From assembly GCA_033439295.1 (NCBI GenBank), contig JAVTLE010000004.1:868012-932011 (forward strand): a DNA stretch of 64,000 nucleotides, in the 5' to 3' direction. The position numbers and the translations under genes were made by a program. Positions 8,792 to 61,610 of this stretch are shown here, in pieces (within the stretch, counting starts at the first letter, position 1; each line of letters starts with the position of its first letter). Below the pieces are notes generated by a model. The model did no database searches, was not told where the DNA came from, and saw only the letters and a program-made list of their open reading frames with translations. This DNA comes from Deuterostichococcus epilithicus. Its lineage: Eukaryota; Chlorophyta; Trebouxiophyceae; Prasiolales; Stichococcaceae.

Positions 8792-8852
8792 CTAAGGCGC
8801 TGGAGTAAGGGTCCAGTCCTCGCGGGCGTGGGTTCAAATCCCACAGTCGACA
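8773..8852 (+). tRNA. tRNA-Leu: tRNA-Leu(AAG)
   Basis: The cloverleaf is complete. The 5' GTCGATT pairs with the 3' AGTCGAC, with one G-T pair, to form the acceptor stem. The D arm contains GGCCGAGTGG. The anticodon stem CTGGA/TCCAG encloses a seven-base loop with anticodon AAG. A long class II variable region follows, and the T arm is GTGGG/CCCAC around TTCAAAT. The discriminator base is A at 8852, and no intron is present. It decodes CUU leucine codons. Confidence 0.95.
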
Positions 8853-30100: not shown

Positions 30101-32463
30101 CTTCGCTGCTTACTTCAGCTGGCCTCATGGTGACGACGTCGGCGCCGTAGCCGTCGGTCATGTACACAGCAGGTGCAGTAGTGCACCACCCAACGGTCGG
30201 GCGGCCCTCGAGACAAACCGCAACAAACCCCGGAACGAGTCCGGCACAGACCCCGGCTGGCGGATTCTCTCATTGCTTCACCCACCAGGCTCCACTGTGG
30301 CGAGGTCGGCGCCGGAGCCGTCGGTCACATACAGCAGGTGCGCGCGCTGCAGGTCGGACAGCAGGCCCAGGCCCGCGTCGGGGCTCGGTGTCACGCGCGC
30401 CCGCCGCAGCCACTCGCCACCCTCCGCCAGTGTGAACATGCGGTTGCCGTCCGGCAGCAGCCTAGGAAGGGGGCATGAGGGCACTGGTAAGGAGGCTAAT
30501 GGTGCCTAGCTGGGACGGTTGCATGGGCACCGCTGTGAGTTCCCTAGTCTCCATCGACACCACCTCCGCTGCACCTTGGTGTTTGGTAGCAATTCGGTAG
30601 GCCGCATGCCCCAGGTTGCAGGCAGCTCAATGGCACACACACATGATTCATGACTAGTTGGGGTAGCATGGCACTGCAGCGGCGTCGAGCCCAGGAGGTC
30701 GGCGCTGTGGGGCGCGCACCCTCGGCCAATCTTATGCGCAATGGACTGCAGGTGGCTGTAGCGCTCTTCGCTCATGCCGTCCGGCAGCAGCGGCCGCGGC
30801 ACCGCCGCCTGCGGACAGTAGGGCGGCGTCAGGCGGGCGACGCAGAAAGGAAGGCTGAGCGCTGCATGCGGGCGCACAATGGCAACTGTGTGTCTGACAG
30901 CAGCCGGCCGGCTGCCGTGTCACATGCCTCCGCCCCCAGCAGGCGACTGTGCAGGGGTGCAATCCATGGCCTGCAGTCCAGCAACATTTGACTGCTGCGG
31001 ATCACTTCAAGATCCAAGACAACACCCTACCGCAGGCGACTGCGCAAGGGTGCGGTCCACGGCCTCCCGCAGGTCCGCCGGAAGCGCGGGCTCATTGGAG
31101 CCGTCCAGCGCGTCGCCAAAGCTGCCGTCCGCGAGCGCCGCCTGCAGCTCCTCTGCGCCGCCAATGAGCAGGCCGCCCAGGAACACCTGCGCCGCCGCCG
31201 CAGGGGCCGTTGTGATCCGCCCTCCAAATCGATTCGCCCGTCAAATTGGTGTGTCCAGAGAGCACTCAGTGCAGTGCCGACACAGATCTCCGTCCACGGC
31301 CCGAAGCAGCCGCAGGGAACCCTTGCGGTTGGTAGTGCAGGACAGGAGCTCAGAAAATGGCTCAAGGGCCGGGGCCGTTGGGACGCACCTGGGGCACGGT
31401 CACGCGGCCGGTGGTTGCTTTCACCTCCGTCAGCAGCTTGGGGTACTGCCCCAGGTCAATTTCCTCATATGCGATCTCTGCATCGTCCAGAGCCGCTTTT
31501 GCCTGCACCAGTGCGCCGCAGGAGCGAGCTGTCAGATGACTGGTGTGCATGTCTGCGACCGCTTCAGATGTGTCTGCCTCTCACATGGAAGCACTGCAGC
31601 GGAGTGCAGCGCTGCAAGCCGGGCTGTGACTGGTGCATTGCAAAGCATTGCACCCTGTGTCGCAACAGCTCAGCAGTGTGCGCCATCGTTGCAGCTTGCC
31701 ATGACCAGCCAATGGCAGCATTGCAGCGGAGCGCAGCGCTGCAGGCCGGGCTGTGACCGGTGCAAAGCATTGCACGCTGTGTTGCAACAGCTCAACAGTG
31801 TACGCCATCATCGCGGCTTGCTATGACCAGCCAGACGATGGCGCGGCGCCGTGTTTCTCGCACCTGTGCACAAAACTGGCAGCCGGAGGTGGTGATGAGT
31901 GCCACCGGCAGCTGCCGCGCCGCTTGACTGCTGGCCACCGAGTCGGAGTGCTGCAGGTGGCCGCTGATGGCGCGCACGGCAAAGCCACCCGGCTGCATGC
32001 TGACGGCCTTGCTGCCGTTCATGCTGTTCCACTTCCTGCCCTGCAAGCTGTTTGTCGCGCGGCTGCTGCGCTGCAGGGCACTGCAGCTCACAAGCCCGTG
32101 AGCTGCAGCAGTCGCAGCAGGTGGTGACAAGCGCGCTTCTGCTACAGCTGCGGGCGCAGCGCCGTGGCAAATTCGCGACGCAGTTGGTGCCGCGCCTGTG
32201 CTTGCTGCAGCACACAGGCGCTGCCCGCTGCCGCAGAAGGCTCTACAATTCAGCCTGGCCCGCGTCAGGGGGGCTGCAAGGCTTAGCCCAGAATTGCTGC
32301 GCGGAGAGCCGCAGTGGACTGCGACGACAATGGTAGGCTGCCGTGCGAAGTTGTCAGGCCGCAGGTGCCTGCGTGGCTGGCCTCCGATTCTCGCGCCAGT
32401 TGTGCTTCCAGCTGGCCCCCAGCGACAGCGAGCTGACTGAGATTTTGCAGATTCCTGCACCAC
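26137..32463 (-). CDS. Glutaredoxin-DEP-DUF547 fusion protein
   Basis: The thirteen-exon model (minus) is 32463-31864, 31502-31389, 31186-31031, 30808-30720, 30461-30286, 29829-29705, 29049-28909, 28415-28300, 28140-27963, 27458-27326, 26994-26906, 26707-26618 and 26193-26137. All phases close, giving up to 687 residues. The glutaredoxin domain has active site CQFC (195-198), then TVPQ and the GGA motif. A DEP-like region follows (about 290-420). DUF547 spans about 421-687, with FFINIYNALV, VRYNIGGADFS, IEHGVLRGN, RIHFALVCGAKSCPP and FKWYADDFG. The same architecture occurs in land-plant proteins annotated as electron carrier/disulfide oxidoreductase. Introns after exons 6 and 7 use GC donors (GCAAGT and GCACGC). 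The start is uncertain: residues 1-147 may be a transit peptide or not translated, and ATGs at 32022 and 31998 are alternatives. Confidence 0.9.
27125..27154 (+). repeat. (CA)15 microsatellite
   Basis: Fifteen uninterrupted CA units lie in an intron of the DUF547 gene, just upstream in transcript order of the exon starting at 26994. Confidence 0.97.
29049..29385 (-). repeat. Serial copies of a DUF547 exon start
   Basis: The functional exon begins at 29049 with CAG then GTGGCGGAGGGGCTGC. Decayed copies of the same acceptor and exon start occur upstream in the intron near 29159 (ATGGCTGAGGGGCTGC), 29248 (GTGGCAGAGGGG) and 29358 (GTGGCGGGAGGGGCTGC). The last also keeps the following CTGATCTTGGGGCTG. 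All share orientation with the gene. Confidence 0.83.
29875..29942 (-). repeat. Decayed copy of DEP-region exon 6
   Basis: The minus strand here encodes ASAALQLLEEAPHAAW, closely matching STALQLVEDAPHAAW in the functional exon at 29829-29705. It lies in the upstream intron. The similarity ends after the Trp codon. Confidence 0.85.
30124..30180 (-). repeat. Copy of exon 5 3' end
   Basis: This segment repeats the end of the exon at 30461-30286, with GGCGCCG, GCCGTCGGTCA and CAGCAGGTGC shared in order. It lies about 165 bp downstream within the intron. A base insertion breaks its reading frame. Confidence 0.8.
30935..30980 (-). repeat. Copy of exon 3 3' end
   Basis: GGCGACTGTGCAGGGGTGC and a following CCATGGCCT repeat the 3' end of the functional exon (31031-31075 region), which has GGCGACTGCGCAAGGGTGC. 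The copy lies about 95 bp further along the intron. Confidence 0.8.
31591..31844 (-). repeat. 127-bp intronic tandem duplication
   Basis: Two direct copies start at 31591 and 31718. They share long blocks such as GCCGGGCTGTGAC, CAAAGCATTGCAC and ATGACCAGCCA and differ by scattered substitutions and a small indel. They lie in the first glutaredoxin intron. Confidence 0.92.
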
Positions 32464-35389: not shown

Positions 35390-38300
35390 ATGGACTTGCC
35401 ATGGGTGAACGCGACCAGCTGGGTGGATGCCGGCCTGGACCTGGCTGTTGGAAAGCACGAGAAGGACATCTGCAAGCATGCGAGCTACCATCATCGCATC
35501 AATGATCCAGGCAAGACACTGCCCCCGGGGGCTGGGGTCGACCCCTGTAGAGGCACGCACGGTCATCGAGTCTGTCTTCAGAGCAACGCTCACAGACTCA
35601 TGTGTGTCGGTTGGCTTTCGGAGCGATGCGGTGCCTGCTTGGCACAAGTGTCTTGCATCGATACATGGCGTCTGTCGGCGGCAAGGGCTAAAACCTGGCT
35701 CTGGTGGAGCGCAGAGCGATACAACTACTGTCCGATCCCAGGTGCGATGATGCCGCTTGCACTTTTCATGCGAACTTCCTGATCTGCTGCATGGGTGATT
35801 TTGCATGCGCGAAGGCAGGTGTTCGCTGGCCAGAGCAGGTCCTGCCGCCTAGTCAATGCTTTTGGGTTCACCACAAATGGCATGCACGACCCCCTCAACC
35901 TGCTGCTCACCTGCAGAGTCTGGAGAGGATGCAGTGCTTTTTGCGTCCATTGCACTACTGGCCGCGTGCCTGCTGTCGGGGCGCCTGTCGGCGCTGTGGG
36001 TCTTCATCGCAGGCAAGTGCTGGTTGGCAGCTGGGAAAGGTCACCCTATCACTGCACTCTTGTGCGACAGTGCTGGCGCAGAGATTGCCATACATCCGTA
36101 GGGCATCGAGGTGCATTCGACCGCCAGCCACAGCACTTCTCTGCGTGCAGCTGCTCGGCCCTGACTGGCTGCTTCAAGTGCAGGCGGCCTGCTGCAGCTG
36201 CTCAATGTGGCCTGCAACATGGGACCCTTGAGCAACGCCTTCACGCTGTGGCTAGGTGATTGCTCGCGTCCGCGAAGATGCATGCAAGTGTGCTTCAAGT
36301 GTGCTTGCACCTTGCAGGCGGAGGCCGGCAGTGCTGCAGGCCATTCCTCAGATATCCCCGCTATCAACTGCAAGCCAATGCACACGAGCCCGACTTTAGA
36401 CGTCAGCTTGAACAAACACGGAATGTGATCTCCTAAGACTGAAGAGTGCAATCTCCTAAAGCTGTGTGCGGCCTGCAGGCATCCGGCCAGCGGACATCTT
36501 CCTGTACGTATTCCTGCCGCCGCTGCTGCTGGACAGCGCAGTGCGCATGGACTACTTCGTCTTCAAAAAGGTGATCACGTGCTTCTGTGCGCGGGGCGGC
36601 CTGGGCTCACCTCACTGCCCCTGTCCTCCTCCTCCGCCTGCTGCTCAGGGGTCATGCTGACCTGTGCTGACACATGCACTCCTTTCCTGCGCCCCATGCA
36701 GGTCATGCTGCAGGTGCTGACCTTCGCGTTCCTCGTGGTCATCTGCTCCACGGTCCTCATGGTGCCCATCATGCTGTACGTGTTCCGCCTGGACGAGCTG
36801 GGCTGGCGCTGGCAGCACGCCGCGCTTTTCAGCTCCATGGTCGCGTCAACAGATGCCGTCACCGTGTCTGCCATCCTGCACTCCGGTGAGGAGCATGGCC
36901 ATTGTTGTCTGCTTGGCTTTTGAACGAAACCAAATTACGAGTCTGCAGCACGCCGCGCTGTTCTCCTCCGTGGCCGCCGCTGCCGTGTCCGCCCGTCCTG
37001 CACTCGGGGGAAGGCTTTTGTTGTGGGTATCGGGTGGGTGAAGCCCTTGCCTCCTGGCTCCACCACAGCCGGCGTGGGCCCGGCGCTGACAGCGTAGCTG
37101 GAGGCCGGGTTGCAGAAGGGCGAGTTGCTATACGACGGCGCGTCCGCCACAAAAACATGCCTGTGCAGTCTGTGCCTCAAATCTTACGGCTTCGAAATCT
37201 TTGTGCAACCGTCTCCGTGCAGCCGGCGTGGGGCCGGCGCTGACGGCGCTGCTGGAGGGGGAGTCGCTGTTCAACGACGCGTCGGCCATCACGCTGTTCG
37301 AGGTGTTCCTGCAGCTGGTGCGGCGCCTGGAGGCCGGCAAGCCAGAGCTGTCGCTGTCGCAGACGGCCGCCGACCTCGCCTACCGCATCGTCCTCCTGTC
37401 CGCCGGTGCGTCATGGCAAGAAAGCCTGTGAGCTCGGGCCTCCCTAACGGCGGCGGCGGCGGCGGCGGCCTGCTTGCTGGGTGGACCCAATGTGGACCCA
37501 TGGCGATGTTGCTTGGACACACTCGAGGGACACGAGTCATAACTTGTGCACATGCCAAGCACAACTTGTGGGCAGATGGGCGCTGCGGCGCCGTCAGTGT
37601 AGCTTCTGAAGGCCATGTCTGTGAGTAGCGCTAACATCCGGAGCGCCCCGGTTCTTCCAAGGTCATTCGAGGCCCATCTCTGCCGCGCTGCCTAGCAAGT
37701 GGCGTCCATTCATGCTGTCAAGTCTGGCTGTGCATGTTCGACAGGCGGCGCTCTGATCGGCTATGGCTTTGGAGTTGCGACGCGCCATCTGCTCAAGTGG
37801 CTGCAGAACCGCGGGGCCAAGCCACCGCAGGTGAGCACCATGCAGGACACGACAGAAGTCCTCGTGATATGCACCTTGTATGAGACTTCCCTACACATGT
37901 TCATCCCCAAAACCCAAGATCAGCCTCACATGTGTGTGTTGAGTAGCGTTGAGTAGCTGGGATACAACAAAAGATGCTCATATCCCAGCCGCACCACCCC
38001 TCATGTGAGGTTGCACAGACTTTTCTGCACACTTGGTGGGCCTGAAGTCACTGAAGGCTTGGGCAGTTTTGTGTGCTTCTAGCATCCCTCGTGCAGGAGC
38101 TGGCAGCGACGCTGGGCCTCACAAAACACCGCCTGTGGGGTAACACTAAGGTCATGCAGGGAGTTATGTTCCAACGCAGCACAGGAGCTGGCATTGATGC
38201 CGGTCCTCACGAAACCGCTTGCACGGGTCAGCGAATCAAGGTTTCGCAGCCGAGACATGTTCGATGCAACCACAGGAGCTGGCGGTCACGCTGGCGATGG

Positions 38301-41300
38301 CGTACCTGGCCTTCTACGTGGCCAACTCCCCGGCGGTGGCGGGCGTCTCGGGCGTGATTGCGGTCGTCGTCATGGGCATCTACGGCTCTGCGACCGGCAA
38401 GTGGGACATGTCGCCGCGCGTCGCGGAAAGCGGCCACTTCTTCAGGTGCGCTGTGGCGCCTGTGCAGAGCTCCTGCGGTGGTGCTGCCGAGAGCCCCGAG
38501 GCAGTCTCGCAGGAGCCTCCAGGCTGGCACTGGTGCAGGACTGGGACATCAGACACGCTGGTGTCGACGCAGTGGCATGCAGCTGTCGGAAAACTGCGAG
38601 TTAATTGCTGCTCCGCCTGCAAAGGTCTGAGAATGATCTTTGCAAACGATGGTGCCAAAAGGGCTGGCAAGGATGCTGACGAGACGCCAAACAACCTATT
38701 TGTGCGTGCAGCTTCTGGGACACGATCAGTTTCATCGTCAACGGCATCGTCTTCTTCTTCGCGGGTGCGCACATCATTATCAACTTGATTTGACAATGGA
38801 CACCAGCCACCATGCGCATACTCAGCGTTCTCTGGCATGCCCCCGCAGGCACCTCTGCCGTGAACTTCTTCGTGCGGTGCGTGCGCCAGCCTCCGCCCCC
38901 AAATACCATCCACCACGCTTTCACCACCACCATCATCTGCTGTTGCCTACCGCTGTGCCTCTGCTGCATACCATGCAGCCCATGCGCCTTGCCTGCAGTC
39001 AGACCCCTTGCATGAACTGAGCAGCAACTGCAGGCAGCAGCTTGCACAATCATACACGTGTGTGGCACCCCAGGTTTGGATGCCGGCTTGTTGGACGCGC
39101 TGTCGCCACCTTCTTTGCCCCCTGCTGCGGCTGCCAAAACCCTTTGAACCACTTCGAAAACCTGCTCGGGACCCTTTTGCAGGTCTGCGGAGGAGCTCAA
39201 GGACACGGGCACGCTGGACGTGCTTTTCGCAACCTTCTGGCGGCTGCCATTTGTGTACCTGGCCATGTTCGCTGCGCGGGCCGTGTCCATCGCGCTGTTC
39301 AAGCCGCTCTTCGACCTCGTCGGCTCGGGTGCGGCAGCTTCAAACTATCTATGTAATCTAATTGCACGTGTTCTGTGCATGCACCTCTGCGGGTGCTTGG
39401 GAATGAAGCGCCGTTGCCGAGGTGCTGCGCTCCATTTCCAATTACTTTATGGCTGCCGCCTGATGTGCGGTGCGGCTCCTACTCTACGTTTAGTCTGGGC
39501 AGGGGCGTCTGGACGCAGCATTCGTTGCCTACTTGCGGCACGACAAGTCAGGCCTGTGCCCAGCGGGCGCAGAACCCTCATGAGATGCCCTGCGCCCGCA
39601 GGCATGTTCTGCGGCATGCTCTTCACGACCTTTTCAGTGGTGCAGCAGAGTCACAACCGCAATGATGTCACGCCTGCAGGTATGTCCTGGGGCGTGGTGC
39701 TGTTCACCACCTTTGGCGGGCTGCGCGGGGCGGTGTCCCTCATCCTGGCGCAGATCCTGGTGCTGGACCAGGAGGAAAAGGTGCTGTCCAACCGGCGCAT
39801 CACCGCCGAGGTGCGCTCTCGAACCTGGAGTGCGCGGAAACGACAGGAATTCAACCATAGAAGATCGTGAACCAAGGGGTCAGGGTGTGTACTGTGGGCC
39901 CACATGGGGGTGCTGTCCAGCCCAGCACATCTCTACGGAGTGAAGGCATGCCTGATTTGTCTGATCTGTCATTTCGAGTGCATCGCTGCTCCAGGACAGT
40001 GAAGGCCAACCTCAACTCACTCAACAGACTCACAGGCATAGTCGAGGATTTTGTCCGGTGCAGATTGCGCTGTGGACCAGCGGCTTCGTGGTGCTGACGC
40101 TTATCATCAACGCGCCGCTCATGCCCTGGCTGCTCAAGATCACGGGTGTGCCGCCACTCCCAAGGCCTCGACTTCTGGACTCCTGGCGTTCTGACGTATT
40201 CACGCCCCCAGCCCTGTAGAGCTGTCGCTGATTGCTTCAGCACAGCCCATGGTCATTGGTTGTCCTGCTGGCTGCAAGCACAAGCACGATCGGCAGTGGC
40301 TCCTGCAGCATGCGCAGCACTGCAGCTGATGCTCGGTCAGCTGTCACCGCACCGTGCTACAGTCCTGCAGGGTGTGGTGGGCGACTGATGCCTGAGCACG
40401 ACACCAGCGGCACAGGCAGGGTTGTTGCAGATGTCACAGCGACCAATGCCTGAGCACTGCATTGCAGGCGTGGTGGAGGGCGGCTCCATAAAGAAGCGCA
40501 TGCGCTCAAAGGCGGCGCGGGCGCTGGTGCGCTACACGCACTCCGCCATCGAGGACCTGAAAGGGGAGGAGGACGAGATGCTGCGGGGTGGGTCGCTTTA
40601 GTTGTAGCGCTGTCAAATGCTCCTCAAAACTTGAAGGACAAGCTTGTGTGCAAAGCTCCGCAATCGCGGCCCTCAAGGGTGACGAAGGCGAGATGCTGCG
40701 GGGTTGGCCCACAATCTTTTCTGTGTGTCTGTCTCTTAAACGTTCGTTTCTCCCGGCTTTTTTCGGCTAAATCCTAAACCCGTGTGCAGGCGTAGACTGG
40801 GGAAGGTGCAGTAGGTTGCCTAAACCCTGAAAACACCCTGAAATCATGTGCAGGCAGGGGCGGAGCATGGTGGCGCAGCACCTTGCCTAAATCCTCAAAC
40901 CGTGTGCAGGCATGGGCGGAGCATGGTGGCGCAGCACGTTGCCTAAACCCTGAAATCGCGTCCAGGCATGGACTGGGGCATGGTGGTGCAGTACGTTGCT
41001 CAAACGCTGACACCGTGTGCAGGCGTGGACTGGGGCATGGTGGCGCAGTACGTGGACCTCAGCCCGGTGCTGCCGGCCCTGGACGATGAGGGCGAAGACG
41101 ACGAGGGCGAGGGGGACGGCGGCGGCGGGGGCGGGCCTAGAGGCGGCGGCGGCGGCGGAGGGCACGGCGGCGGCGGCGGAGGGCGCGGCGGTGGCGGCGG
41201 TGGCGGCGGTGACGCGGCGCAGCGCAGCCAGCCGAGCTGGACGGAGCGCACCGGGCTCGCTCAGGTGAGGGCTAAGCTGGGGCTGAGCGTACTGCCCAGG

Positions 41301-44300
41301 ACGCGGGGTGCTATTGCTCTGAATGTGTCGGCCGCCTGAGGGCTGCAACAGATGCATGTGCAAAGGCGCGCGGCTGCGGCAGAGGCAGCGGCTCTCATTC
41401 GAGAGGGGAGGCACTGAGGCAGCAGAGGGCAGTCGCTGCAGCTTTGCAGAAGCAGATACTGAAGAGAGAGTGGATGGGTCAACAGTTGTGCAAAAGCACG
41501 TCTTGACGTGGCGCAGCAGAGCCCGCACGGTCCACCTAAATTTGCAGATTTGCCCCTTGCGAGCCCTGTGGCACCCAGCGCTATGCTCATCGCCCGTATC
41601 CTGCAGGGATACATCAGGTAACTCGTTTAACAAAGCAGTCTCGCTGTTGTGGGCACTATACGGCAGTTACGGCAGTTGCACCTCCACATCTGCAGCTGGC
41701 ATAAATTTACTGGGTAAGAGTACAGCTCCCCTGGCCGGGATTGGCAGCCTGCACAGCTTTGGCCCGACGCTCTCACCAGTTACACTACTTTGCAGTCAAT
41801 GGCGCAGCCGGGTGCACAGCACCGGCACCGAGTCTTGACTCTGAAAGCTCTCCAGCTGGTAACAGCATCGTCAGAGCTCAGCACATGCTGCCTTACGGGA
41901 AGCTGTCCGGAGGCGAGGTGTCGTGCAGACCACTTCAAGCCTCCATGCAGCGCGTGGGCTGAGGCACGGCCAGCCATGTCAGGCAGCTGCAGAGACAGTG
42001 CTCCTCTCTGCCGCCTGACAGACCCTGGTCAGAAACCCCAAAAACAACCCTCGGCGCAGATGACGGCTCATTTGGCGGAGCGTGTGGGGGCACACTGCTC
42101 GCCAAAACCTTGTGGGTGTATCAGCCTTGGAGTATGACGGGTGATGACATGCCATGGCGCAGGCGGCGGCCTGGTCAGCAGAGCGTATGAAGGGCATGCT
42201 GGGGCGGCAGACGGGCGCGGAGGCGCTTCCGCGCTGGGCGGACGACCCCGAGTCACGCTCTGTGTCCATCTCCACGCCGCTGCTGCGCCCCCTGGACGAG
42301 GAGTCGGAGTCGGAAGCAGGTGGGCATGCAGGAAGTCGTTCTCCGCCTGATGCCTGAAGTCCAGCAAAGCCCGACCCTGCCATGCCCTGAGTCGCGAGCG
42401 GGTGTGTTCCGGGCCTGGAGCTGCTTCTGCAGCTGCGGCAGGCAGTCCGGGCGTCGACGGAACGGCCGGGCAGCAGGTTGCACACACCCCGGGTCACGTC
42501 TGCTCCAGTCGGGAGTGCAGCACGCGTCGCAGGCACCGGTGTGGCGTCCCGCCACTCCACAGCTGCATGTGGAGAAAACCCCTGCACTGACTGCGCACCA
42601 GGCCACCATGCACGTGTAACGAAGCCTGTGCGCGCATTTTCAGCCCTAAACCCTAAATCCTCCTTTCAGCAGAGGAGGGGGAGCTGCACAGCATCGTCAC
42701 GGACCGCGTTGCCAACAGGGCGACGGAGGGCAGCGGGCCGGCGGGCTGCGGCATGCGCGTCATGCAGCCCTGGCCTAACAACCTCACCGACCTGGAGCAG
42801 GCGAGGCTCTTCTGCTCTTACGGCCATCACAGAAAATCGGGAACGTCGTCGGAGCCGTGTGTGCAGGGGCCGTGCGGTGGAGCTGTTTGGCCCTCAAAAC
42901 GCGCGCGCGCCTACTGGCCGAGGCTCTGCCGGATCCATTCGACCAGAAGGGGTGATGTCTATCGTTTTTTTTGGCAGACTGCTGGCTCGATTCTCAAAAC
43001 CCGGACTTGCCATGGTGTCGAGCGAGCAACCTCGTGCTTGCGAAGCTCTGCTCCATGTCGTACATTTCGTTTTGAGGGTTGGCCATGGCGATTTGCTTAG
43101 GCGATCACCTGTCGGCCCGCACCAGAGTTCCCTTCACACACGCGCCGCCTTTGGCGCATTTTTTACAGCAGCGCTAGCTCACTTTTGTCGGCACTGTCGG
43201 CGCACCTTGTGTCGGCAGTGGCGGCTTGCCCTACCTAGCTCTGCTGCTACAACTCCATGCTCACACACATCCTACTTCCCATTTCTCTGAAGCAGGCACA
43301 CAAAGCACTTGCCCTTCATCAGCAACAAAACCTGGCGGGCGACACGGCATATGTCCATGCGCATGCACCTCCTACATCTCTTTTTGTTGTGACAACCTAT
43401 GAAAATCCTGCCGCTCCATGGTGGGCAAGCACCTTGGGCGATGTGGCGTAAACCCACATGTACTTCACACTTCCCGCCTTGATAAGTTTCCGAAAATCCC
43501 TAACCGCAGGCGCACGGCCGCTTTGCGGAGGACCTGCCGTTCATGGGCAAGGACCTTGCCGGGGACGCGGCCTCAGACGAGGCCGCCGGCGCGCACAACG
43601 GCGGCGCTGACCCTGGCGCCGCCGCCGAGCGGCTGGGCGCTGACACGCATGCGTCTGTGGGCCTGAGCCAGGAGATGCCGCCTGCCGCGGTGCGCCCTCC
43701 TGGGCTGTGTGCTGACGATTCACATGAAGGCTCCAGCACAGAAGATCGGCATTGGTTGCCACAGTGCAAACCTGTGCACATCTGCCAATTGTTGCGCACT
43801 GTTGCCTCAGAGGTCGAAGGTGGTCGCACGCAGCGGCAAGTGTCCGGTGGAAGATGCCGTTGCTTGCTGGCTTGAGTTCCTCTGTGGCAGCGGGCTTGTC
43901 TGTGTGCCTTTTTGCCAGACTGTTCCCATGGCTATCCTTGACGACGCTGGTTGGCCGGCTCCTGCCTGCTGCCTGCTCCCATAAATCGTCGTGGTCAGCA
44001 CTCCTGGGGACTTGAAAGACGGTTCCAACATGCTACCGGATGCCGCAGCATTGTGGTCAGTGTTGCATTGTGGTCAGTACTGGGGACCTGACAGAGATTT
44101 TCACTGTCTCTTTTTCACATGCTACAGGAGGCCGCAGGCGGTGGCAACGCCGGCGAGGCAGCGGACGCGCTGCCGGTCACCAACATTCCGCCGCAGGCGA
44201 GCGGCTCCGTCCGGCTGCCGTCCGGCACGGGCGTTATCTTTGAGGACAAGGAAGCGCTGCACGCGGGGACCGTCGGCGGCAACGCCCGCGACGGCGGCGG

Positions 44301-47300
44301 CGCCGGCGACTTCCCGGGGCTGCAGGAGGTGGCGGCGGGTCCGGATGACGACGATGGCGGTGGCAGCGGCTGCGGCGGCCCTGGTGGCTGTGGTACCGAC
44401 AGCGATGGGGACGGCGGCGGCGGCGGTGGCGGGAACGGCAGAGCCGCCGGAGCGGGCGGCGCGGGGGAGCCGGGCGGCAGCAGCCACAGCAGCCACGCGG
44501 CGCTGGACAGCGTTTTAAATCCGCAGACGGCACACTGGGAGCGCCACCCTGAGGTGACCTGATAAGGCATTCGACGGGGTTTTCTTTCCTGTGTGCTTGT
44601 GCAGCAACCAGGCATCCGTCGTGGTTGCAACTTGCTGCATTGCCATGCACATGTATGTAGAGCAATGCACTACTGGTGCAAATGAGCAGTTTGCTGCATC
44701 TTGGCAGCCTGGCTTGGGCGTTGCTACCCGCCAATCGCCACATGCTGGCCATATAGACCACGCCTGCACAAGTGACCTCCGCGCCTGCGCCGTGCAGCGC
44801 GCCACCTCGGCAGCGCGCACCGCCAGCAATGCCAGCGCTGGCCCATCAGGCGGCGACGGCGGTGGCCGCTACCTCGTCATGCCGCAGCCCGTGCTTGTGC
44901 CGCGTCTCGCCCGTGCCGACAGCCCCAGGTACGACTGCGGTTGTCCTTTGCGACTTGCCAGGTGGCAGATATGCTTGGGACGGCGTTCGCAGAGGCGAGA
45001 CGGGTTCTCCAATGGCGACCTCTTGATGCCTCTGGAGCGCCCGTCACAGCGGCCATGCACTCGAACCACACAGTCAATCAGCAGGACCCATAGAGGGTCT
45101 AGAGGGCTGTCGGAGGTGTGCGCCAATGTGATGGCAGCGCGAGCAAGCCCATATGGCAGACTTCGTGAGCCACACGGTGCAGATGCACTGCTCGGGTCGT
45201 ATATGTGTTGCCTCAAATTGTGCAAGGCTGCCAATGACCGCTAGTCCCTCAGGCCCTGTGCAAGCCAGCACGCTTGGCTGACCAACAGCTTCCATGGACT
45301 TGACAGGAAGGAAAGCAGGGCCGCAGCTGCAGACGAGAGCTGGGGTGCTGTCGGGGATAGGTACCTTTCGAGTTCAGATGATGATGACACCTTCATGTAT
45401 CAATCATCTGCGCAGCCACTGACGTGGGCCCAGTCACAAGCGCAGGCCCACGACCTGGACTGAGGCAATATTGCCACAGCTGGCTCACATTAACTTAGAT
45501 TGCCTGCCCTGACCGCGCTTCTGCTCATCCGGTGGCCAAACTTAACTTTCACCATTGAAGTGGAACGGCGCTTGCCACACTATAGCGCGGCTGCACTGGT
45601 GTTCCAGTAGCGGCTGCCAGTGCAAACAACACCCTTTGAAGCGCACCGCCTTGCGCGCAGCGAGAAGCTGCTGGCCGGCGGGCGGACGGGCTCGGCGCCG
45701 ACGGTGAGCTGGCTGCCGGTGGACTTGCAGCGGCTGCGGCGGCAGGGCCAGCAGGGCCAGGAGCCGCCCGACGACTGGGGCATGCCGCCCACGCCGACCC
45801 ACTTCGGTGCGGTCCCCCCCCTGGTTTCCCGCCCCCCGCAGCAGCGGTTGGTCCGCGCTCCGGCGCTTGGTTGCATCCCACACAGGCTACCTTTGCTGCA
45901 TGTGATTGTGGACAGGCACATGTGAGCAAGCGCAGGCAGCATGCAGGACCGCAGTGGCAGGGATGCGTGCGGCAGGCGGCAGCGGGGACCCAATCCAGCG
46001 CATGGCACTTGTAGCTTTTGGGAGGTTGTCGGAACTCTGAAAGTGGACCTGAAGAAGCCGTTTCCCCAATCGCACCAGGCAGCAGCGGGTCCCGCGCCGG
46101 CAGCAGCAGCGCCCTGGCGGCGAGCGCCTCCTGGGATGGCGGCCGGCAGGGCTCTGGCAGCATCCGCCGTGGCTCCGACGAGGTGCGCTGTCAACCGCCC
46201 AGACGGCCGTTTGAGCCCCATGAGTGGGTGGCCGCCAGCGATGGCGGGCCTGGGTCCTGTTCAGGTTCAGGCACTTATCACCCTGCTGTGCGCCCGCAAT
46301 CTCAGGACACATGGGACACCCACCATTTCCAGGTTTTGATTTGCGCCCCAAAAACCAGATCTTGGGTGCCGTCCTTGTCATGGCCCCACAATGTGCTGCA
46401 CAATGTGCTGCTGACCCTCAACCCTTAATCCTGTACCAGGGCCACCGGGCGTCGTCCTCGGGGCGGTGGACGGACGGCGGTGGCGCCAAGCACACGATGC
46501 TGCGGGCGGGCGGCATCGGCGCCAGCGGCGGCCTCGGCGCCAGCGGCACCGTAGATGAGGATCCGTCCGCGAACCGGCCGTCGACCCCGAGCTCGCCAGG
46601 CGCGCGCTGGCGTGATCCTCACAAAGTGCATTGTCTGCTCCGTGCCTGCTTGCTGGCATGCCAGAGCTCGAGGAGCAGTTGGTGTTTTAGGACAGAGTTG
46701 GGACCAATTCTCTGTGGTCAGGCGCTGAGTGCCAGCTATTGCCGAGGGCACAGGTAGGCCTGCATCATTTGCCATCTTATTAGCGGCAGTGAGACCTGTG
46801 CGCCTCTGGAAACTGGTACTTTGCGCCTGGCTTGAAGTGTGTGCACGTGCTAAGGTGGCCGCCTGCATTCCACTGGGATTTCCAAAATCTGGCATGCTCA
46901 CTTGGCAGTGCCTTAGGACCGATCGGGGTACCAGACACTAAGAACAGGGCATACGTAACCCTCACTTGCAGTGCATGACTCCATTGTTGAATTGCGCCTT
47001 GGCGAGTTGCGCAGCCGTGCGGACCCCATCAGCGGCCCAGGTCGCCCCTGGGCAGCTAGTTGGCAGTGGCGCCGACAGACCTCGCTCTTTGGTCCTTGTA
47101 TGGCAACCCAGACGACACACAAGGGCAATGCTGGTCGCCCCACAGGTGGCAGCGTCACCGCCAGCGTCGTGGAGCTGGGAGCGAAGTCAGTGCATGGAGT
47201 CATACCCTGTGCGAGCGAATTTGCATTTGCAGGCGCCAGCGGCGGTGCAGTAGCGCAGGCCTGACAAGATGTGCCTGCAGGTGCCGACTGTATCAGATAC

Positions 47301-50300
47301 GTTCTGTCCAGCCTGCAAACCCGTGCAGGCGCCAAGACCCTAAAACCTGCAATGCAGGCGCCAGCGACAACGCCATGGCGCACGGCTTCCACACCTTCAA
47401 CACGCACGAGCCGGGCGTGGAGGCGGCGCAGACCAGCCAGTCGGCGGCGGAGCGCTATGAGCAGCTGTCGCCCGGCGACGCGGAGGCAATGACCACGGAG
47501 GCGCGGCTGCGGCTGCTGTCGGGGCTCAAGCGCTACTTCCACTCCAAGCGTGCCGAGGGGCTGCTCAGCGGCCGGGTGAGCACCCCCAGTCTCGCGCAAG
47601 GGTCAATTTGCGCTGGTGTCTTGCGTACAGGAGAAGCTTCTCTGGCGTCTCCGGGCTGGGCAGCTGTGCCGGACCCCAGGGCTGGTCCTGGACTATGGCA
47701 GCAGACAGCCCTGTTCCCTGGCGAGCTCCCGGCCCCAGAATCTGCCGTTGCAGCTGTCGTCCCCAGCCTGCGCCGCTGACGCTGTCACCGGCAGAAGTTG
47801 CTGTTGGCCGATTCCGCAGCCGCAGCGTCTGATGCATGCATGTTTGCGTGCGTGCGCAGGGCATGCGCATCCTGGACTACGCCTGCGACCTGGCCATGGA
47901 CTCCGCCACGGAGCCGCTTGCCGTCTGGTCCGCCATCCAGGTGCGGCTGCCGGCCTGGGGGTTCGTGCATGACAGCTGCATGGTCCCTGCCAGCCGCCTG
48001 AGGCTTGGCGGCGCTTCGGTGTGCAATATTGCCTCCCTGTGACGTACTCATGCGGCTGGAAGCTGTTGCTGCAAGCACCCCTTTACGGCGGCAAGTCTGG
48101 CGTCTCCACAAATCTGGACAGTGATGCGGGGACGCTGGCGATGCGGGGATGCCGCTCTTTGCACGAGAGGAACCACCAGTTGACAAGTCAGAAACCTCAG
48201 GGGTCGACATTAATGAACTGCCTTGAATGCCAGCTGGCCAAGCTGAAATCCTGCTGTTGTCGCCTCACCAGGCGGAGGTGGCNGGCGGCCNGCNGNTCAA
48301 GCTGCTGGCGGCGGCGCTGTTCCACACGGCGGTGCTGGGCAACTGGCTGCGCAACACCAGCATTCCGCTGCTGCGCCGCGTGCTGTCCTGGCCGCGCGGC
48401 CTGCTGTCGCGTGCGTCCTGCAGCCTCGTCCTGTGCTTGACACGGAAACCTTTTCCACTGTCTGCAACTTGATCAAGTGGTCGGTGTGAAAGGCTGCCTT
48501 GCAGAGCCTGCTCAGCTTGAACAGCCAGCGTCAAAGCTCAGAGTCCTGAACTTGCATGCTTCCGGCTGTTTGTCCACGGCTGGATGTCTTTGCATGGAAG
48601 ACTATTTTTAAAGGTGTCTGGTCGAAATGCAGGCTGGCTGAGCTCCCAGCTGAGCAGCGTGATGCTGGTGGGCATTGAGGCGGCGGTGGAGTTCTGGCTG
48701 GCGCTCAGCTGGTCGCCGCAGGCGCAGTGGCTGCGCTACTCCGACCCGTCCGGTTGCCTGCTGGTGAGGAGTCCTATGATTTAACATTAAAGGGTTGGAG
48801 ACAAACTGGAGGTGCACAAATCTTCTGGGGGATACAATTCTGGTGTTTGTGGGGCTGCAATGGATGCTTCGTGTGGTGCTTCCGACCCTGGCATGCATGG
48901 CGCCCGACACGCACATGTCACGTGCATGCCTGGGTCGTGACGACTTCGAGCTTCCATATCAGCCCAACAAGTCACCCAGAAGATTAAGTTCCCAAAACTG
49001 GAAGCACGACAGAGGCATCGTTTGAAGTGCACGCAACCAGCACCTCTCCGGTCTGAAAGTAGAACTGGTGACTGCAAGGTTTGACATGTCCATTGCATTA
49101 TTTCCACTGCATTTGACAGACACACAGCCCTCGAGGCTGCACAGTCGAGGCGCATGCCCGGCCTGATTGTCTCAACCTTACGGGCAGCCAGCACGGTTGT
49201 GGCAATGTGGAGGCGAGGTCGTCAATTTGTGGGAACCTGGTGCCATGTCAGGTATTGAGAACCTGCTGCAATGTCAAGTATCGAGAACCTGCTGCCACAT
49301 TAGGTTACGAGAACCTGCTACAGGAGGAGGTGGGCGAGCAAGTGGGTGTGGCGGCGGTTCACCATTGAGCACGAGATCGGCTGGACAGTAACATCAAATC
49401 CGGACTTGGACTTGTCACTCAACAGCTGCACGACATGCTGCAGGAGGAGGTGGGCGCGGAGAGCAAGCGGGTGTGGCGCTTCATCATCGAGCGCGAGATC
49501 GAGGCGCCCGACCGCTTCCAAGTGATCCTCCTTGCCCCCTCTTACCCTCAAACCATTTACTCATAACCATGCCCATGACAAGATCTCCAAGCCCTCCAAA
49601 AAGTTTGCTGGCATCAGAATTTCTTCGGCGCATAGTTGAGCAACTACCATCTCTGGCAACACCTGGCAGATGGTGATGGGCCGCTTTGCCACGCATGTGG
49701 AAGCCGCCGTGTCTGCAATCTCACCTAGGGCAACACACTACAGAAGGGAGCCTGCATGTCACCGACAGGGCCGCATCACCGCACTAAAGCGTCAGCTGGA
49801 ATCGAGAGCTCAGCAGCTGTGTCTGTGCCAGGTGCTGGCATATATCTGCCGCCTCAACTGTTGCCGGCAATGAAGGCAGCCCGGTCCCCGCGTAGCACAA
49901 ATGCATTGCCGACGGCGCACACTGCCAGGACTGCGGGCAACACACAACGACCGCCTGCCTGCTTCTGGAATCACACCTGGGGCCTGGTGCCTCCCCTATC
50001 GCTCCCTCAGTCGTTGCCGGCGATGAAGGCGGGCACTGGGTCTGCTCTTGTGGTCCCAGAAGCGGCATGCGGTCGAAGTGTCAATCCCAAAGCCACTGCA
50101 GTGCACGGCATCGACGATGCTCCTGTGGGTGGCTACTTGGGCCGCCGCCTGCCCACAGTAACACCTGCAGGGTTGAAAGGGGCAGCTGTGGGGCCGGCAG
50201 AAGGCGTGACATGCTGGCGCTGCACAGTCAAGCATGCGGGAGGTGCACTGCGCAGCCATGCGGCTGTCACTTTACGAGCACCGCTTCGGTCGGCCCACCC

Positions 50301-53300
50301 TCCGCCCACCCCCCTTCCCGCGGGCGTCTGCGCAATCACTGCTTGAGTGCATGGCTTGCGCTGCCGTCACATGTTCAACCGCAGCAAAGGACTGGATTTG
50401 CAGGTGTTGCTTGCAGCAAGCCTCGCACGAAGTCATATTTCCAGCAGAAACTGCGTCACCGAGCCGACATTAAAATTTGGCGGTCTCTAGGCCTTTCGCG
50501 GCCCAGATAGAACAGGATGACGAGGGCCACTGATAATGCGCAAGTCCGTCTAGTGCACCTCTCTCAATGCTGATGCAATGCCTCCAGGATGGTCCGATTA
50601 ACCACTTTGTCTCACCTACCATGCCCGCTTCTCTCTGTGCGCCTGCACTGACAGCTGCCTTTCTCAACTCCTTCCAGGCCATCCAGTCCTACAGGGCGGC
50701 GATGGCAATCATGCGGCAGCAGGCGCGCTTCGTCGACCAGCTGTACTCCACGGGCATGGTCGACGAGACGGAGGCGAGCCACTTCAGAAGCCTGCTCCTG
50801 TCAGCAATTCTGCCATATCTGCGCTGTGTCTGCCGCATCGTTGGCAGACTGGCATGGCCAGCTATGGCCTGCTTGACTGCCGCATGCCAGATGAGGAGCA
50901 CCGGATGCACTGTCAAGGGTGGGAAGTGCCTGTCAGCGCTTCGCACGAGAAGCGAAACAGTCCTTTCTGCCCTGGGGTGCATGCTGGTGTTGCTCTGCTG
51001 GTGCGCACACCGCACCGTCAAGAACCCATTTCCAATTCTTGCTCCGTCGTCTTGAAACCTCGGTGCCCGTTCCCGCCTGCGCATCGCCAGCAGAGCTGGC
51101 TCAGTTGGCAGACGCGGCCTGCAAGCTCGCTCAGCCTTCGGCTGGCTTTCCAAGATGAGCACCTGCTCAATTTTCGACCTCTTCTCAATTCCGACCCCAG
51201 AAAGACGAGCTGATGGAGCCGGTGGAGAACCGCGAGCGGGCGCTGTCGCGCCTGGGTGCCGTCTGGCGCCCGCCCCTGCTCCTGGACGTGCGCCCCCATT
51301 GCTCTGTGTGCCGCACCCCAGACAGCTTCGACATCGTGTTGCCCCCGGGCTGCGCCACCCTGCGAGGACTGTGTGGCAGCGCCGAATCCCTTCGGATCAG
51401 CTCAGGGCGCATGGGATCTGCGGCTTCGAGCCAGGCAGCTGTGTGACTCGCGTCGTGCCTCCGCAGCCAATGCACCTGCAGCCTCGAGCCGATTGCTCTG
51501 TTCAGCAGACCCACAGCCAAGACTCCTGTGTAACCTGACTGAAGTTGTGCGCCATTCCCTGCAGATCCTGCGTGGCCTGCCGTTCTTCGCTAACGTGCCA
51601 GACACTTTGTTCGACCGCGTGCTGGCCGCCGGCCAGCTCGTCATGTACACCGCAGGTGGGCCAGGGCCAGCACTTCACAAACCCAATAATACTTCCAGAT
51701 TTTCCTGTCGATAACCTCGGGATGAAGTTTGCTGAGCAATCGATGCCGGGTGATGCAGAGATGCAGGTCGTGGGCAAGACTCGATGCAGGACACGATGAT
51801 GTCGAACCGGTTCTGCGTCACTGCAGGCGACGTCATCTGGCGGCCGCTGCCGCCTGACAGCCGCCGCGCCACTTCGGGGTCCGTGCCAGACGTCGGCGGC
51901 GGCAAGGCCGGCGGCGGCGGCCAGCACGGCAGCAGCCAGGCCGGCGACGACGGCGACGACGCCGGGACTAAGGACCCCCGCAGCGAGGGCAGCCAGGGCG
52001 TGTTTGTGGTGCTGCACGGCATCGTGCGCTCGGCGTACGCCGCCCCGGACGGCACCACCAGCGTGAGTATGTCATGTTTGCTGCTGTCAGACACTTGTGT
52101 GCGCACAAGCTGATGGCGCCCGTGCTTAGACAGCCCTTTGCTTGGACCACATGCCGGAACGGTGCAAGCAAAGGGCTGGTGAGCATGGGCTTCAGCTTGT
52201 GCACCCGAAAACCTGCACAGATCAACCCGGCTTTGGCCATTTGAGCATTATCGCTCAACATGCTGGACAGATCCACAGTGTTCTTCATGCTACACCATGC
52301 TGGTGCTGCAGGTGGCCAGCTGCCTGCAAACTTACCGTGTCGTCACAGCATACAGCATTCGTTGCTACTGTTGCTGGCACTGAAGGTGGAGGCACATTCT
52401 GAGCATGCCGATCGCTGCTGGCGACGACTGGCCACTGATTTGTTTGCATCGGCGCAGAGCAGCACTCTCGCCGCTCGGCGGCGTGTTCGGTTTATTGCCG
52501 GCGCTTCGAGGGAGACGCTGCCGCCGACCTGTGACTTGATGATTATAAGGGGCGTCACAAAGCTTCCGTGACAAAGCTCCTATTTCACCGCGCACGTGAC
52601 ACCCTTCAACTTCGCGCGTCATCCGCAGGAGTATTTCCTGGGGCGCGGCGGCATGTTCGGGCTGCTGCCGGCGCTCACAGGGGAGGCGCTGCCGGGGGCG
52701 CGCCCGGTGGTGGCCGAGGGCAACCTGCTGCGCCGGGGCCCCGTGGTGTTTCGCGTCCCGCCGGCGGCGCTCGCGGCGCTGCGCCGCGACGCCGATGCCG
52801 GCGAGCCGTCCTGCGAGCAGCTCATGCTGGACCTGTACCGGTGAACCCCGCGGCGGCTCCTTCAACCATCAGCTGCTGGACCCTGTCACCTTCCACCAAG
52901 TTGGCACTGTATGTGTGTGTGGGACCGTGCCGGACCGGTTGCTAAAACACATCAGTCTGCAACCTGCTACTGGAGCCGCTCTGACGATAAGAGTCTGGCG
53001 CTTGCCGTCTGCTGTGCCTTCAAAGCACCATGTGGAGCTCCAGCGCCCCATGCCAGCATGAGCCGGCACCCCGGAACCACAAGCAGGGCGCTCGCGGCAA
53101 CGCTGCGGCCACAGCAGCGTGGTCGGCCGCGCACATGCTAACAGGCACACAAGGATGTATTAGTGTCGCAGAGAGTGGCGACGCTGTGCGTGGCGGAGCG
53201 CACGTGCAGCGAGGCAGTGGGCAGCCCAAAATGCGCCTGGGCCATGCACATGTCAGCGGGTACACAGGAAGAATTCACTGCTTCCACCACAGGGTGGCGG

Positions 53301-56300
53301 CGCTGTACGTGGCAGAGCGCATGCGCAACGAGGTGGTGGCCACCGTGGCGGCCTACTTCCAGCAGCTGGCGCTGACGGCCGCCCGGCGCGAGGCCGCCCG
53401 CTCGGCGGTGCGCCGCGCCGCCGCCCGCCGCAGCGCCGCCAAGGCGAGTCGCACTGAGAACATGTGTGCCACCAGGCAGCGAGCTGCGCCGTCGGTGCCC
53501 GCGCAGCGCGGCAGGGGATCGCATTGGAATCCCACCATATTGACTGCTGCCGGGCGTCCGCCGTTGTGCGGCTCACCGGCACATGTTCAGCTGCAGAATC
53601 CCCGGCCGTCTTGTGGGTCGTGCGCCGAACGTTGGCATGATGTCCACAGCACCAAGCAGTGGGGCAATAAGAAAGAAATGGTACCCAAACACTGGCAGAC
53701 CACCACCTCAGGCGTCCAGCGACGATCCTGTTGCTGTACTTGCTTCCAGGACGCCAAGAAGGACGAGGCCCAGAAAGGGGACAAGAAGAAGAAGGAGGAA
53801 AAGAAAAAGAAAGAGGACAAGCCGGCAGAGCGGGCGCAGCGGGCGCGCACCTTCCTCGAGGCGGAGTTTGACGAAGCGCTCGCCGCGGCGCCGCCCAAGA
53901 AGGAGCAGGCGCGGATGCTGTCACTCTTCCTCTCACACTTCCTTGGACTCGATCGTCAGTTCCACCATCTCAGACGCTGTCCTCAACACTCGAAAATGCA
54001 TTTCGAAGAGGCGCTCGCCGCGGCGCCGCCCAAGAAGGAGCAGGCGCGGATTTTCTGATTCTCCCTGGTATTCGATCATTCGTTCCGCCATCTCGGACGC
54101 TGTCCTCATGAAATGATAACCTCGGGTCCGACGAGGCGCTCACTGCGGCGCCGCCCATGAAGGAGCAAGCGTGCAGTCCTGATTGTGTCAATGGTAGAAC
54201 GTATCGCGACGACTTAGCAAGCAGAATGCTTGACAAAAGCACTAGAACGATGTGGAGCAGGTTGACAGTGCTTGCGCTCGCACCCTAGGCTTCGAAGGAT
54301 TATGTGTGTGAAATGCTCACTCAGCGGCTGTGCCGTGGCATCCTGTGCCGTCCTGTGCTGACGGGCTGCTGATACCATTGGGTTCATGATCCAATGTCAT
54401 CTGGTTTACCAGCACAGCATGTGCAGGTGCCACCCTCAAGCTGCATCATTGTCACCGCTCCGCTCGCAGGTTGGGAGCTGGCCCTTGGTGGAGCCAGACG
54501 GATGAAGCTGAAGTGCACTAGATACTGGGAGGGCAATGAGCGCACCAGGTCTCAATGCATCGTGTGCTCGCGCCCGCAGGCGAATCCGCCGGAGCAGCGC
54601 CAGAGCGGGAGCGCACCCAGAAAACAAACCCTTGAACTTATGGTTCACTGCAAGTCTTGCTCGCGTCCGCAGGCCAAGCCGAAGCCGCCACCGGCGCCGG
54701 AGCAGGAGCGCACCCAGCGCGGCGGCGCGCAGGACTCGCCCTTCGGCGGCGGCTCGCCGGAGGGGGAGCGGCGCAGCCCCGGCGGCAACGGCGCCGGCAG
54801 CGATGGGAAGCAGGAAGCGCCGGCAATCCCCTCTGACATTGAGCTGCTGGAGGCCATGGACCCGCAGGCCATGTGGAAGGACGTCCAGAAGCACGCCAGC
54901 ATAGGTGCGCATGCAGACAGTCAATGTGCGACATAGTCTCATGTACATCGCCTTCTCCCAGGGTATCTGCTCCTGGACTGCCCCAGAGCAGGGGAGAGCA
55001 GGGATAACGGCGGGAACACAGCGCCCGGATCAGCGCGGAGGGCATGGCGGCTGAGCTGCATGGCCTTCCGAAGATCCTAGTGGCCTTCTGATTGTCTCTT
55101 CTTCATCCTGCCGGAATGGCTGTCCATGCGATCGGTCATTCAATTGTTTCTAAGTTGCTCGCCTTTGCACCCTTTCTGCCTGGCAAAACGTCAGTTGGCG
55201 AGCTGCCAGTCTGGGAATCTCACCCTCTAACAGTGCTGCACAACCTCAAGGTAGGGCTGCGCGAGGCAGAGGACTGATACACTACTGACATACAGAAGCA
55301 AACCTCAAGGCCGGGTTGCATGAGGTGGTCCTGGAGCTGCCAAGTTGTCGCTGACAATAACAGGCCTGGACTGCATCAACACTGACTTTCTCACATCCCG
55401 CCCCGCCCGGGGACTCATCGATCCTGACAGTTTGGCTGCCCCGCCGCAACTGCGGTGCTGTTCAACCTCCGGGCATGGCGGCACAAGGCGGTGGTCCTGC
55501 AGCTGCATCCTTGGAACTTCTGCAGCCTCTACCAGGCAAACCCAGGGCGCATCCTTCCCACCGGGATTCCTCCTCAGGAATCCCGGTGTCAGGTCAACCC
55601 CTGCGACTCATCGATCTGACCAGTCCCCTCCCTCCTGCAACTGCAGTGCTGCACAACCTGAAGGCAGGCCTGCGCGAGGCGGAGGTGCTGGAGCTGCCGC
55701 CCGGCGCGTCCTTCAAGCAGCGCTCCTCCATCGTGGTGCTGCGCGGCACGCTGCGCGCGACCGGCAACGCCAGCCAGCTGCCCACCGCCGACGGCGGCGC
55801 CGCTGGCTCCTCCGAGGGGCGCACAGGTGCGGGAGGAACGCGCCTGCACCAACAACACGACAGCGGAGGGGTCCTGCAGTGTTGGCGGTGTATGCGCACA
55901 ACCAGCAAAGCGAGCAGGCAGTATAGTGTCCACTCGGCGATGCTGGCAGACCAGCAGGACCCAAACACAGCAGGAAACTAATGTGGTTGCTGTGGCTGCA
56001 GGTGACGAAGCTGGCGGCACTGGCAAGCACACTGGACGCCGTGCATCCTGCCGGCCGTCATCCCATCCTGTGCAATCCGCCCAAGGTTCACCGATCCAGC
56101 TAGGTTATGTGTCTGCAGGGGACGAAGCCCGCGGCAGCGGCGAGTATGCGGTGCTGGTGCAGTACCATGCGCCGTGCATCATGCCGTGGCTGTGGGATGA
56201 GGCGGCGCCGGCCGTTGATGCCCGCATGCAGCCCTCCCACATCAGCCTGCGCGCCGGCAGCCGAGGTGAGAGGAGTGCTCCACCCATCCATCAGGGCTGG

Positions 56301-60909: not shown

Positions 60910-61610
60910 CTGTGGCAAAGCAACAATCAGGTCACGAGAGTTATCGTTTTGGCGCCTGCCGCTGCTACAGGCTGGTGCCGGAAGGTCAGGCATGCCCTGG
61001 CAGGCGGCAGGCGGCCCCAAGAAACTGCAGCACCTTGAGCGTGGAGCCTGGGCTACTACCGAGGACCGGCTGATGTCTGGCTGGACAAACAACCACCGCT
61101 CGAGTTTGACCCGATTGGACGCACAATCCGTATGGAGCCGACACGCAATGCGGGCGCGGTCACCTTCGGCACCATGCCACGGCTCTTCAGCCGCTGCACC
61201 AGCTTAGTCGTCCAGGATGCAGGTGCGCCAGCGACCGGAGCCTGCGGCAGCGCCTCTCCTCGTACCGGGAGCGCCGAGCGCAAACCCTGCGGCAGAGCAA
61301 CAATCAGGTCACAGGTTATTTGGTTTGGCGCTTGCCGCTCTTACAGGCTGGTGCCGGACGGTCAGCATGCCCCGGCACGCGGCAGACGGCCCCAAGGATA
61401 TGCAGCATCTTGAGCGTGGAGCCTGGGCTACTACCGAGGACCAGCCGATGTCTGGCTGGGCAAGACAACCACCTCTCGAGTTTGTCCCGAGTGGACGCAC
61501 AGTCCGTGTTGAGCCGACACGCAATGCGGGCGCGGTCACCTTAGGCACCATGCCACGGCTCTTGAGCTGCTTTATCATCTTTGTTGTCCAAGATGCAGGC
61601 GCGCCAGCGA
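60865..61610 (+). repeat. About 377-bp tandem direct repeat
   Basis: Unit 1 begins near 60865 and unit 2 near 61242. Long blocks are shared, including GAGCGTGGAGCCTGGGCTAC, GATGTCTGGCTGG, GACACGCAATGCGGGCGCGG and CACCATGCCACGGCTCTT. Unit 1 contains most of the first mapped exon of the minus-strand coiled-coil gene. Confidence 0.94.

Follow-up and report, generated by a model that had tools for sequence, protein, structure and literature searches.

Introduction

Tandem duplication across an intron–exon boundary is already known from potato. In the cited part of the report on the potato RdRp gene, a tandem duplication crosses the 3' end of an intron and the start of an exon; the signals used in splicing are those of the parental junction, and RNA-seq shows that the gene acquired both a new intron and additional exonic sequence; a further 83-bp tandem duplication in this gene lies within an intron (Ma, Lan and Niu 2016, PMC4974935). 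Here we examine a related pattern in the green alga Deuterostichococcus epilithicus, in a 64,000-nucleotide stretch of DNA (C4:868012-932011, hereafter the window) with a predicted Na+/H+ antiporter gene whose introns carry decayed direct copies of the edges of the neighbouring exons. We conclude that these copies are probably the remains of short tandem duplications that were blind to exon borders.

As in the potato RdRp gene, tandem duplications here cross intron–exon boundaries, and intron-internal duplications occur as well. The two cases differ in that a new intron is spliced in potato, whereas the copies here are predicted to be intronic, are mostly old and lie in many genes. Rogers-type intron gain, described in the same source as the tandem duplication of an exon segment bearing AGGT (PMC4974935), also involves tandem duplication close to splice signals, but the present copies lie near their own junction within longer introns. 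Staggered DNA breaks give rise to small tandem duplications with units below 100 bp in mouse and human cells, in the cited part of that work (PMC8355091). Their products resemble ours in being short direct tandem units; the system is one of mouse and human cells, and offers a possible mechanism for the present copies by analogy only. A 2014 study by Vaughn and Bennetzen, cited alongside staggered-break duplications, was reportedly on rice. Introners alter introns in many genes by inserting copies of themselves at many places, as the cited part of a further source describes (PMC9860276). Introns are changed in many genes here too, but the similar copies at unrelated places that mark introners were not seen, since the spacers and the array that we tested form no such family. 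A literature search over titles and the beginnings of abstracts, with few subscription papers, returned no such pattern in algae and no genome dense in such fossils.

Results

Direct copies of exon edges in their own introns

All exon borders used here are predictions of a self-trained codon-phase hidden Markov model (HMM) with donor and acceptor matrices. Training started from long open reading frames (ORFs) in 264 kb, comprising the window and 100 kb each from contigs C1 and C5 (block coordinates counted from contig base 500001) of an assembly of 46.8 Mb in 21 contigs, with CCCTAAA arrays at contig ends. A 40-kb block from C3 was held out of training and brings the whole sample to 304 kb. 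Across the 264 kb the model predicted 54 genes with 573 exons and 519 introns, and it learned a splice consensus of AG followed by GTGCG at the donor junction and of (C/T)GCAG followed by G at the acceptor junction. In the edge test, each intron was aligned with the adjoining 60 bp of the exon on either side; for controls we used the intron in inverted orientation, introns of matched length from other genes and the opposite, far ends of the exons.

At an alignment score of at least 20, 43 of 1042 pooled edges had a direct match in their own intron, compared with 1 of 1042 for inverted introns and 0 of 1042 for introns of other genes. The direct edge copies described in the original prediction are thus confirmed. 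Lowering the cut-off to at least 16 gave 65 direct, 6 inverted and 4 other-gene matches per 1042 edges. Within the 264-kb set at a score of at least 20, the acceptor side contributed 22 copied edges out of 454 and the donor side 19 out of 446, with no inverted match for either. Introns of matched length from other genes gave none (0 of 2201 for acceptors, 0 of 2155 for donors). The far exon edges stayed at background (2 of 454 and 1 of 446), so that the copied edge is the near one. Both kinds of edge are therefore copied, while the predicted prevalence of acceptors is mild at most, given the 22 versus 19 edges above and the 35 acceptor versus 22 donor pairs left after removal of duplicates in an annotation-blind scan.

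The copy rate varies along the genome. At a score of at least 20, the window is richest (14 of 189 edges), followed by C1 (19 of 351), C5 (8 of 360) and the held-out C3 block (2 of 142), which is poorest and contains the sole inverted match. Edge copies were also scored in two other gene models of the window, g3 and g6, and together with the copies in C1, C5 and C3 this bears out the expectation that more than one gene is affected.

The antiporter gene model has 38 predicted exons (36219-54058) and 37 introns. Alignment with solved Na+/H+ exchangers covers its membrane part from residue 18 to residue 460 of 461 (best hit 1.1e-44, plant SOS1 3.2e-36; the query omitted the predicted copy-exon 38097-38150), and the part also matches the Pfam family Na_H_Exchanger. 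The solved-exchanger alignment and the Pfam match support most borders of the membrane part. Direct edge copies were found in 14 of the 37 introns at a score of at least 14 (inverted, 4 of 37) and in 9 of 37 at a score of at least 16; 7 introns remained at a score of at least 18 and 6 at a score of at least 20, with no inverted match at any of these three cut-offs. An estimate of at least ten antiporter introns was thus about right, although it leans on the looser cut-off. The copies and related repeats mapped in the window are as follows, edge copies having been placed by edge alignment.

36886..37222, + strand: antiporter intron (HMM) with two copies, a donor-edge copy at 36945-37005 (identity 0.72) and an acceptor-edge copy at 37069-37113 (identity 0.82)
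38097..38150, + strand: copy of the start of exon 38276-38445, itself predicted as an exon by the HMM and probably a decoy, judging from sequence; its 18 residues are outside the exchanger query
39604..39633, + strand: acceptor-edge copy of exon 39680-39810, identity 0.76, weak score of 15.5
40656..40702, + strand: donor-edge copy of exon 40468-40587, identity 0.81
40835..41053, + strand: tandem array with a 56-bp unit in 3.9 copies, reaching into the exon with its first base at 41023; the last copy includes the start of this exon and its predicted acceptor
43304..43348, + strand: acceptor-edge copy of exon 43510-43689, identity 0.71, score 17.5
49333..49379, + strand: acceptor-edge copy of exon 49444-49521, identity 0.83
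52473..52523, + strand: acceptor-edge copy of exon 52629-52840, identity 0.79
53175..53223, + strand: acceptor-edge copy of exon 53293-53463, identity 0.82
53475..53529, + strand: donor-edge copy of exon 53293-53463, identity 0.73
53867..54171, + strand: coding stretch at 53867 duplicated 135 bp downstream (0.93 over 44 bp), both copies within the predicted last exon 53750-54058
~54130-54171, + strand: third, more decayed copy of the 53867 stretch, past the last exon, found by eye
55234..55272, + strand: acceptor-edge copy of exon 55647-55826 of the next gene model, identity 0.90
31585..31833, - strand: intron-internal tandem duplication with a 122-bp unit in 2.0 copies, clear of predicted exons, found with Tandem Repeats Finder (TRF)

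At 53175..53223 the intron flank is similar too (p ~0.003), which points to a junction-spanning tandem unit of ~119 bp. Separately, a 376-bp unit present twice with 87% matches (window 60859-61621) is largely intronic and reaches a predicted exon. Lone single N bases fall in a predicted antiporter coding exon at 48283-48296; the window holds 16 N in total.

Could the copies be assembly artefacts or chance similarity in GC-rich sequence? A low-score background of this kind does exist, namely the four inverted antiporter introns at a score of at least 14 and the inverted and other-intron matches at a score of at least 16. At a score of at least 20, however, both controls are near zero, and most copies differ from their exon by several percent or more, which is not expected of assembly errors. 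We hold this explanation refuted at the stricter cut-offs and give it next to no weight.

Unit length and decay of the copies

The copies lie close to their source. Among 45 matches with a score of at least 20, a distance of 80-170 bp separated 36 from the junction to which they belong (17 of 25 at acceptors, 19 of 20 at donors). For 21 of the 25 acceptor-edge copies the projected distance from the acceptor was no more than 210 bp, the introns being 114-742 bp long; this projection bears on Rogers-type gain, in which the 5' end of an intron is expected to look like the start of the exon downstream. Scanned without regard to annotation, the sequence yielded 106 direct pairs as against 11 inverted windows, the latter unmerged. 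The pairs comprised 49 exon-intron, 18 intron-intron, 35 exon-exon, 3 mixed and 1 intergenic, many of the exon-exon pairs belonging to repetitive proteins. With exon-exon and intergenic pairs excluded, the fullest shift bin was 100-119 bp (17 of 70 pairs). Intron interiors gave 71 direct windows, 10 inverted ones and 1 in other introns; 12 of the resulting 31 pairs were shifted by 100-139 bp, the range in which border-spanning repeats also peak. This common peak suggests that unit length is a property of the process rather than of splicing. As in tandem duplication, the copies were direct and adjoined their source, and units crossed a splice junction in the manner of potato in 15 of 31 alignments and 7 of 14 arrays.

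The copies themselves decay freely while the exons are constrained, as indicated by mismatches and indels in 46 hits. Counted by codon position of the live exon, mismatches numbered 126 of 787 (0.160), 132 of 785 (0.168) and 181 of 778 (0.233), and 54 of 60 copy indels were not multiples of three. Among 22 acceptor copies, 12 retained the dinucleotide AG, and 7 of the 14 copies of donor edges retained GT, where neutral decay predicts 0.64; splice scores resembled those of real sites in 7 of 22 and 5 of 14 copies, respectively. The notion that duplication leaves decoy splice sites may hold in part, as AG and GT are partly kept, but retention is at or slightly below the neutral level and few copies are site-like.

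These data bear on whether the copies serve as exons, either alternative or mutually exclusive. One copy, L017:8391-8554 (C1 block 78391-78554, C1 gene model 21), has mismatches of 0, 0.08 and 0.22 by codon position, and the members of eight pairs of adjacent predicted exons share 77-95% identity, as use would allow. The frame-breaking indels and the loss of AG in 10 of 22 and of GT in 7 of 14 copies argue against it, and we consider use as exons very unlikely overall. By eye, the gene model of L017:8391-8554 is mitochondrial-carrier-like, and this copy may have been in use until recently.

Two other sources were set aside. Copies derived from mRNA were rejected on inspection by eye, uncounted, as exon-end and exon-start copies are not back to back in shared introns. 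The telomere unit CCCTAAA occurs on the sense strand of introns in 7 cases in 304 kb, 5 of them 20-29 bp before an acceptor. It was rejected as a cause of copies near acceptors, as there are just 7 cases and their position is more like a branch-site effect.

Relation to exon borders

To examine whether copies favour exon borders, we took 105 distinct pairs and dropped 23 with both copies exonic. Seven inspected alignments in which overlapping pieces paired a stretch with itself were disregarded. In 47 of the remaining 82, an exon block touched a border, while shifted labels gave 20.5 +/- 3.8 and none of 500 shuffles reached the observed count. Border overlap thus exceeds chance, and the finding survives the shuffled-position comparison by which it was to be refuted.

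An excess of this kind does not by itself call for targeting. In a position-blind simulation, we compared the number of introns with an edge hit to the number with an interior hit. This ratio rose with divergence, from 0.49 at 0.05 to 1.31 at 0.20, 4.56 at 0.25 and 22.5 at 0.30; with uniform ages it came to 0.72, and with an old-skewed mix to 1.99. The observed ratio was 54/27 = 2.0 in 519 introns, with 8 inverted edge hits. Border copies would stand out because their exon partner is conserved. Full tandem arrays depend less on exon conservation, and among these (12 of 26 dropped as at least 90% exonic) 7 of 14 spanned a border, compared with an expected share of 0.46 +/- 0.13. The proposed special link to borders is partly supported by the excess of 47 of 82, but exon conservation together with old copies suffices to produce it, and full arrays show no excess. 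Border targeting is neither shown nor excluded by these counts, nor is it needed to account for them.

Extent of the proposed duplicated unit

Duplication of a unit as long as the shift predicts similarity between the spacer and the flank on the far side of the copy. Several results of this flank test, and others, weigh against border-blind tandem duplication. Of 55 hits, 48 were testable; spacer and flank were alike in 10 of these, with 41.6 expected at face-value divergence, and in 4 of the 12 least diverged hits, with 11.9 expected. The simulated share of alike flanks was 0.77 for uniform ages, 0.57 for triangular and 0.33 for old-skewed ages, while a fixed divergence of 0.25 gave 0.28; within the least diverged subset it was 0.59 for old-skewed ages and 0.28 for the fixed divergence. 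Old ages thus reduce the misfit, but part of it remains. The uniform-age model yields an edge-to-interior ratio of 0.72 and not the observed 2.0; few copies are young, some being concealed as predicted exons. Only 1 pair was found in 33 kb of intergenic sequence as against 31 pairs in 122 kb of intron, a small sample, and none of the 14 full arrays was intergenic, which a fully blind process would not predict. Finally, the held-out C3 block is poor (2 of 142). The intergenic paucity hints at a process that favours genes.

Such flanks are what one would expect if an exon edge with a few splice-site bases were placed ~100 bp into the intron beside an unrelated spacer, through templated repair or an RNA-linked process. 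Consistent with this, ungapped flank identity was 0.20-0.34, about chance, more than 10 bp from the junction, compared with 0.61-0.77 over the first 30 exon bp (24 acceptor and 19 donor hits), and none of 36 hits lay more than 30 bp inside the exon. Three of four exon-intron pairs with an identity of at least 0.90 and a shift of at most 220 bp covered less than half of their shift; this alignment-based measure is biased low, as the TRF-complete tandem at 31585-31833 scored just 0.58. On the other hand, 15 of 31 free, junction-crossing alignments extend at least 16 bp into the intron, and several of 12 inspected introns show in-register flank homology together with further, more decayed copies. 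Complete arrays run through a junction at window 40835-41053, at L011:9387-9643 (unit 104) and at L021:6477-6603 (unit 64). Moreover, old ages reproduce most of the flank deficit. Junction-precise copying, at first an attractive interpretation, was lowered to a still live rival after the old-age simulations and the in-register homology, and we now consider it unlikely.

The spacers do not form a repeat family, an explanation that we rejected: 46 spacers revealed no common family in 264 kb and a single 22-bp match elsewhere. The array at 40780-41055 had, among the best candidates, one genome location only.

Diverged flanks could also arise if tandem duplication were followed by short-tract conversion of the dead copy by the live exon, or by a transfer RNA (tRNA). 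A tRNA-Leu (AAG) at window 8773-8852, inside a predicted gene, provides a clear case. Upstream lies a 133-bp tandem unit (8544-8676) whose last stretch is a dead copy of the 5' end of the tRNA, with 42 of 43 bases matching; by eye, the other end of the unit is alike too, and its middle is nearly unrecognisable. This clear case is single, however, and the frameshifts and the even mismatches at codon positions 1 and 2 argue against a general upkeep of copies, which makes conversion an improbable explanation at large.

Consequences for introns

The original prediction held that introns here grow by local direct duplication across splice junctions, in many genes. Together with the 43 of 1042 direct matches, intron lengths agree with this: the median was 372 bp for introns with a copy at a score of at least 18 (n=53) and 223 bp for those without (n=549), a gap of about one unit, with the caveat that longer introns give more room for matches, though border events should be independent of length.

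The eight similar exon pairs, chosen by eye from 58 rows of which the remainder are mostly long matches of lower identity, have shifts of 90-246 bp. They may be either decoys predicted as exons or intron gains of the potato type. In C1 gene model 12, a predicted 51-bp intron between exons 2 and 3 lies between 39-bp direct repeats of 95% identity, and is a candidate for a young intron formed by tandem duplication.

Discussion

Border-blind tandem duplication probably accounts for the copies as follows. Short direct tandem duplications of ~100-120 bp would fall anywhere in genes, including across acceptor and donor junctions, and their units could come from fill-in and end joining at staggered DNA breaks, as the literature suggests. 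Where a unit spans a splice site, one of the two resulting junctions would stay in use with the frame intact and the other exon piece would become intron; the mRNA would be unchanged and the intron longer by one unit. Copies at borders would stay visible longer, as a pair with a conserved exon partner should diverge more slowly than two intron copies. As a result, border copies can appear special without having been targeted.

A broader proposal is that tandem duplication of ~100 bp, acting mostly in transcribed genes and favouring junctions, is a main route of intron lengthening and keeps surplus splice sites and pieces of exon available as a lasting supply for new introns and small exons. 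We regard this as rather unlikely; if it were true, the eight exon pairs would be candidates for new introns or small exons drawn from that supply.

For annotators, some small exons predicted in this genome may be decayed copies. With about one exon edge in 24 bearing a datable dead copy, this compact, intron-rich genome preserves past events as fossils, which makes it possible to measure the rate of the process, the length of its units, any bias in where they fall and their age. The growth and gain of introns have often been argued from single cases.

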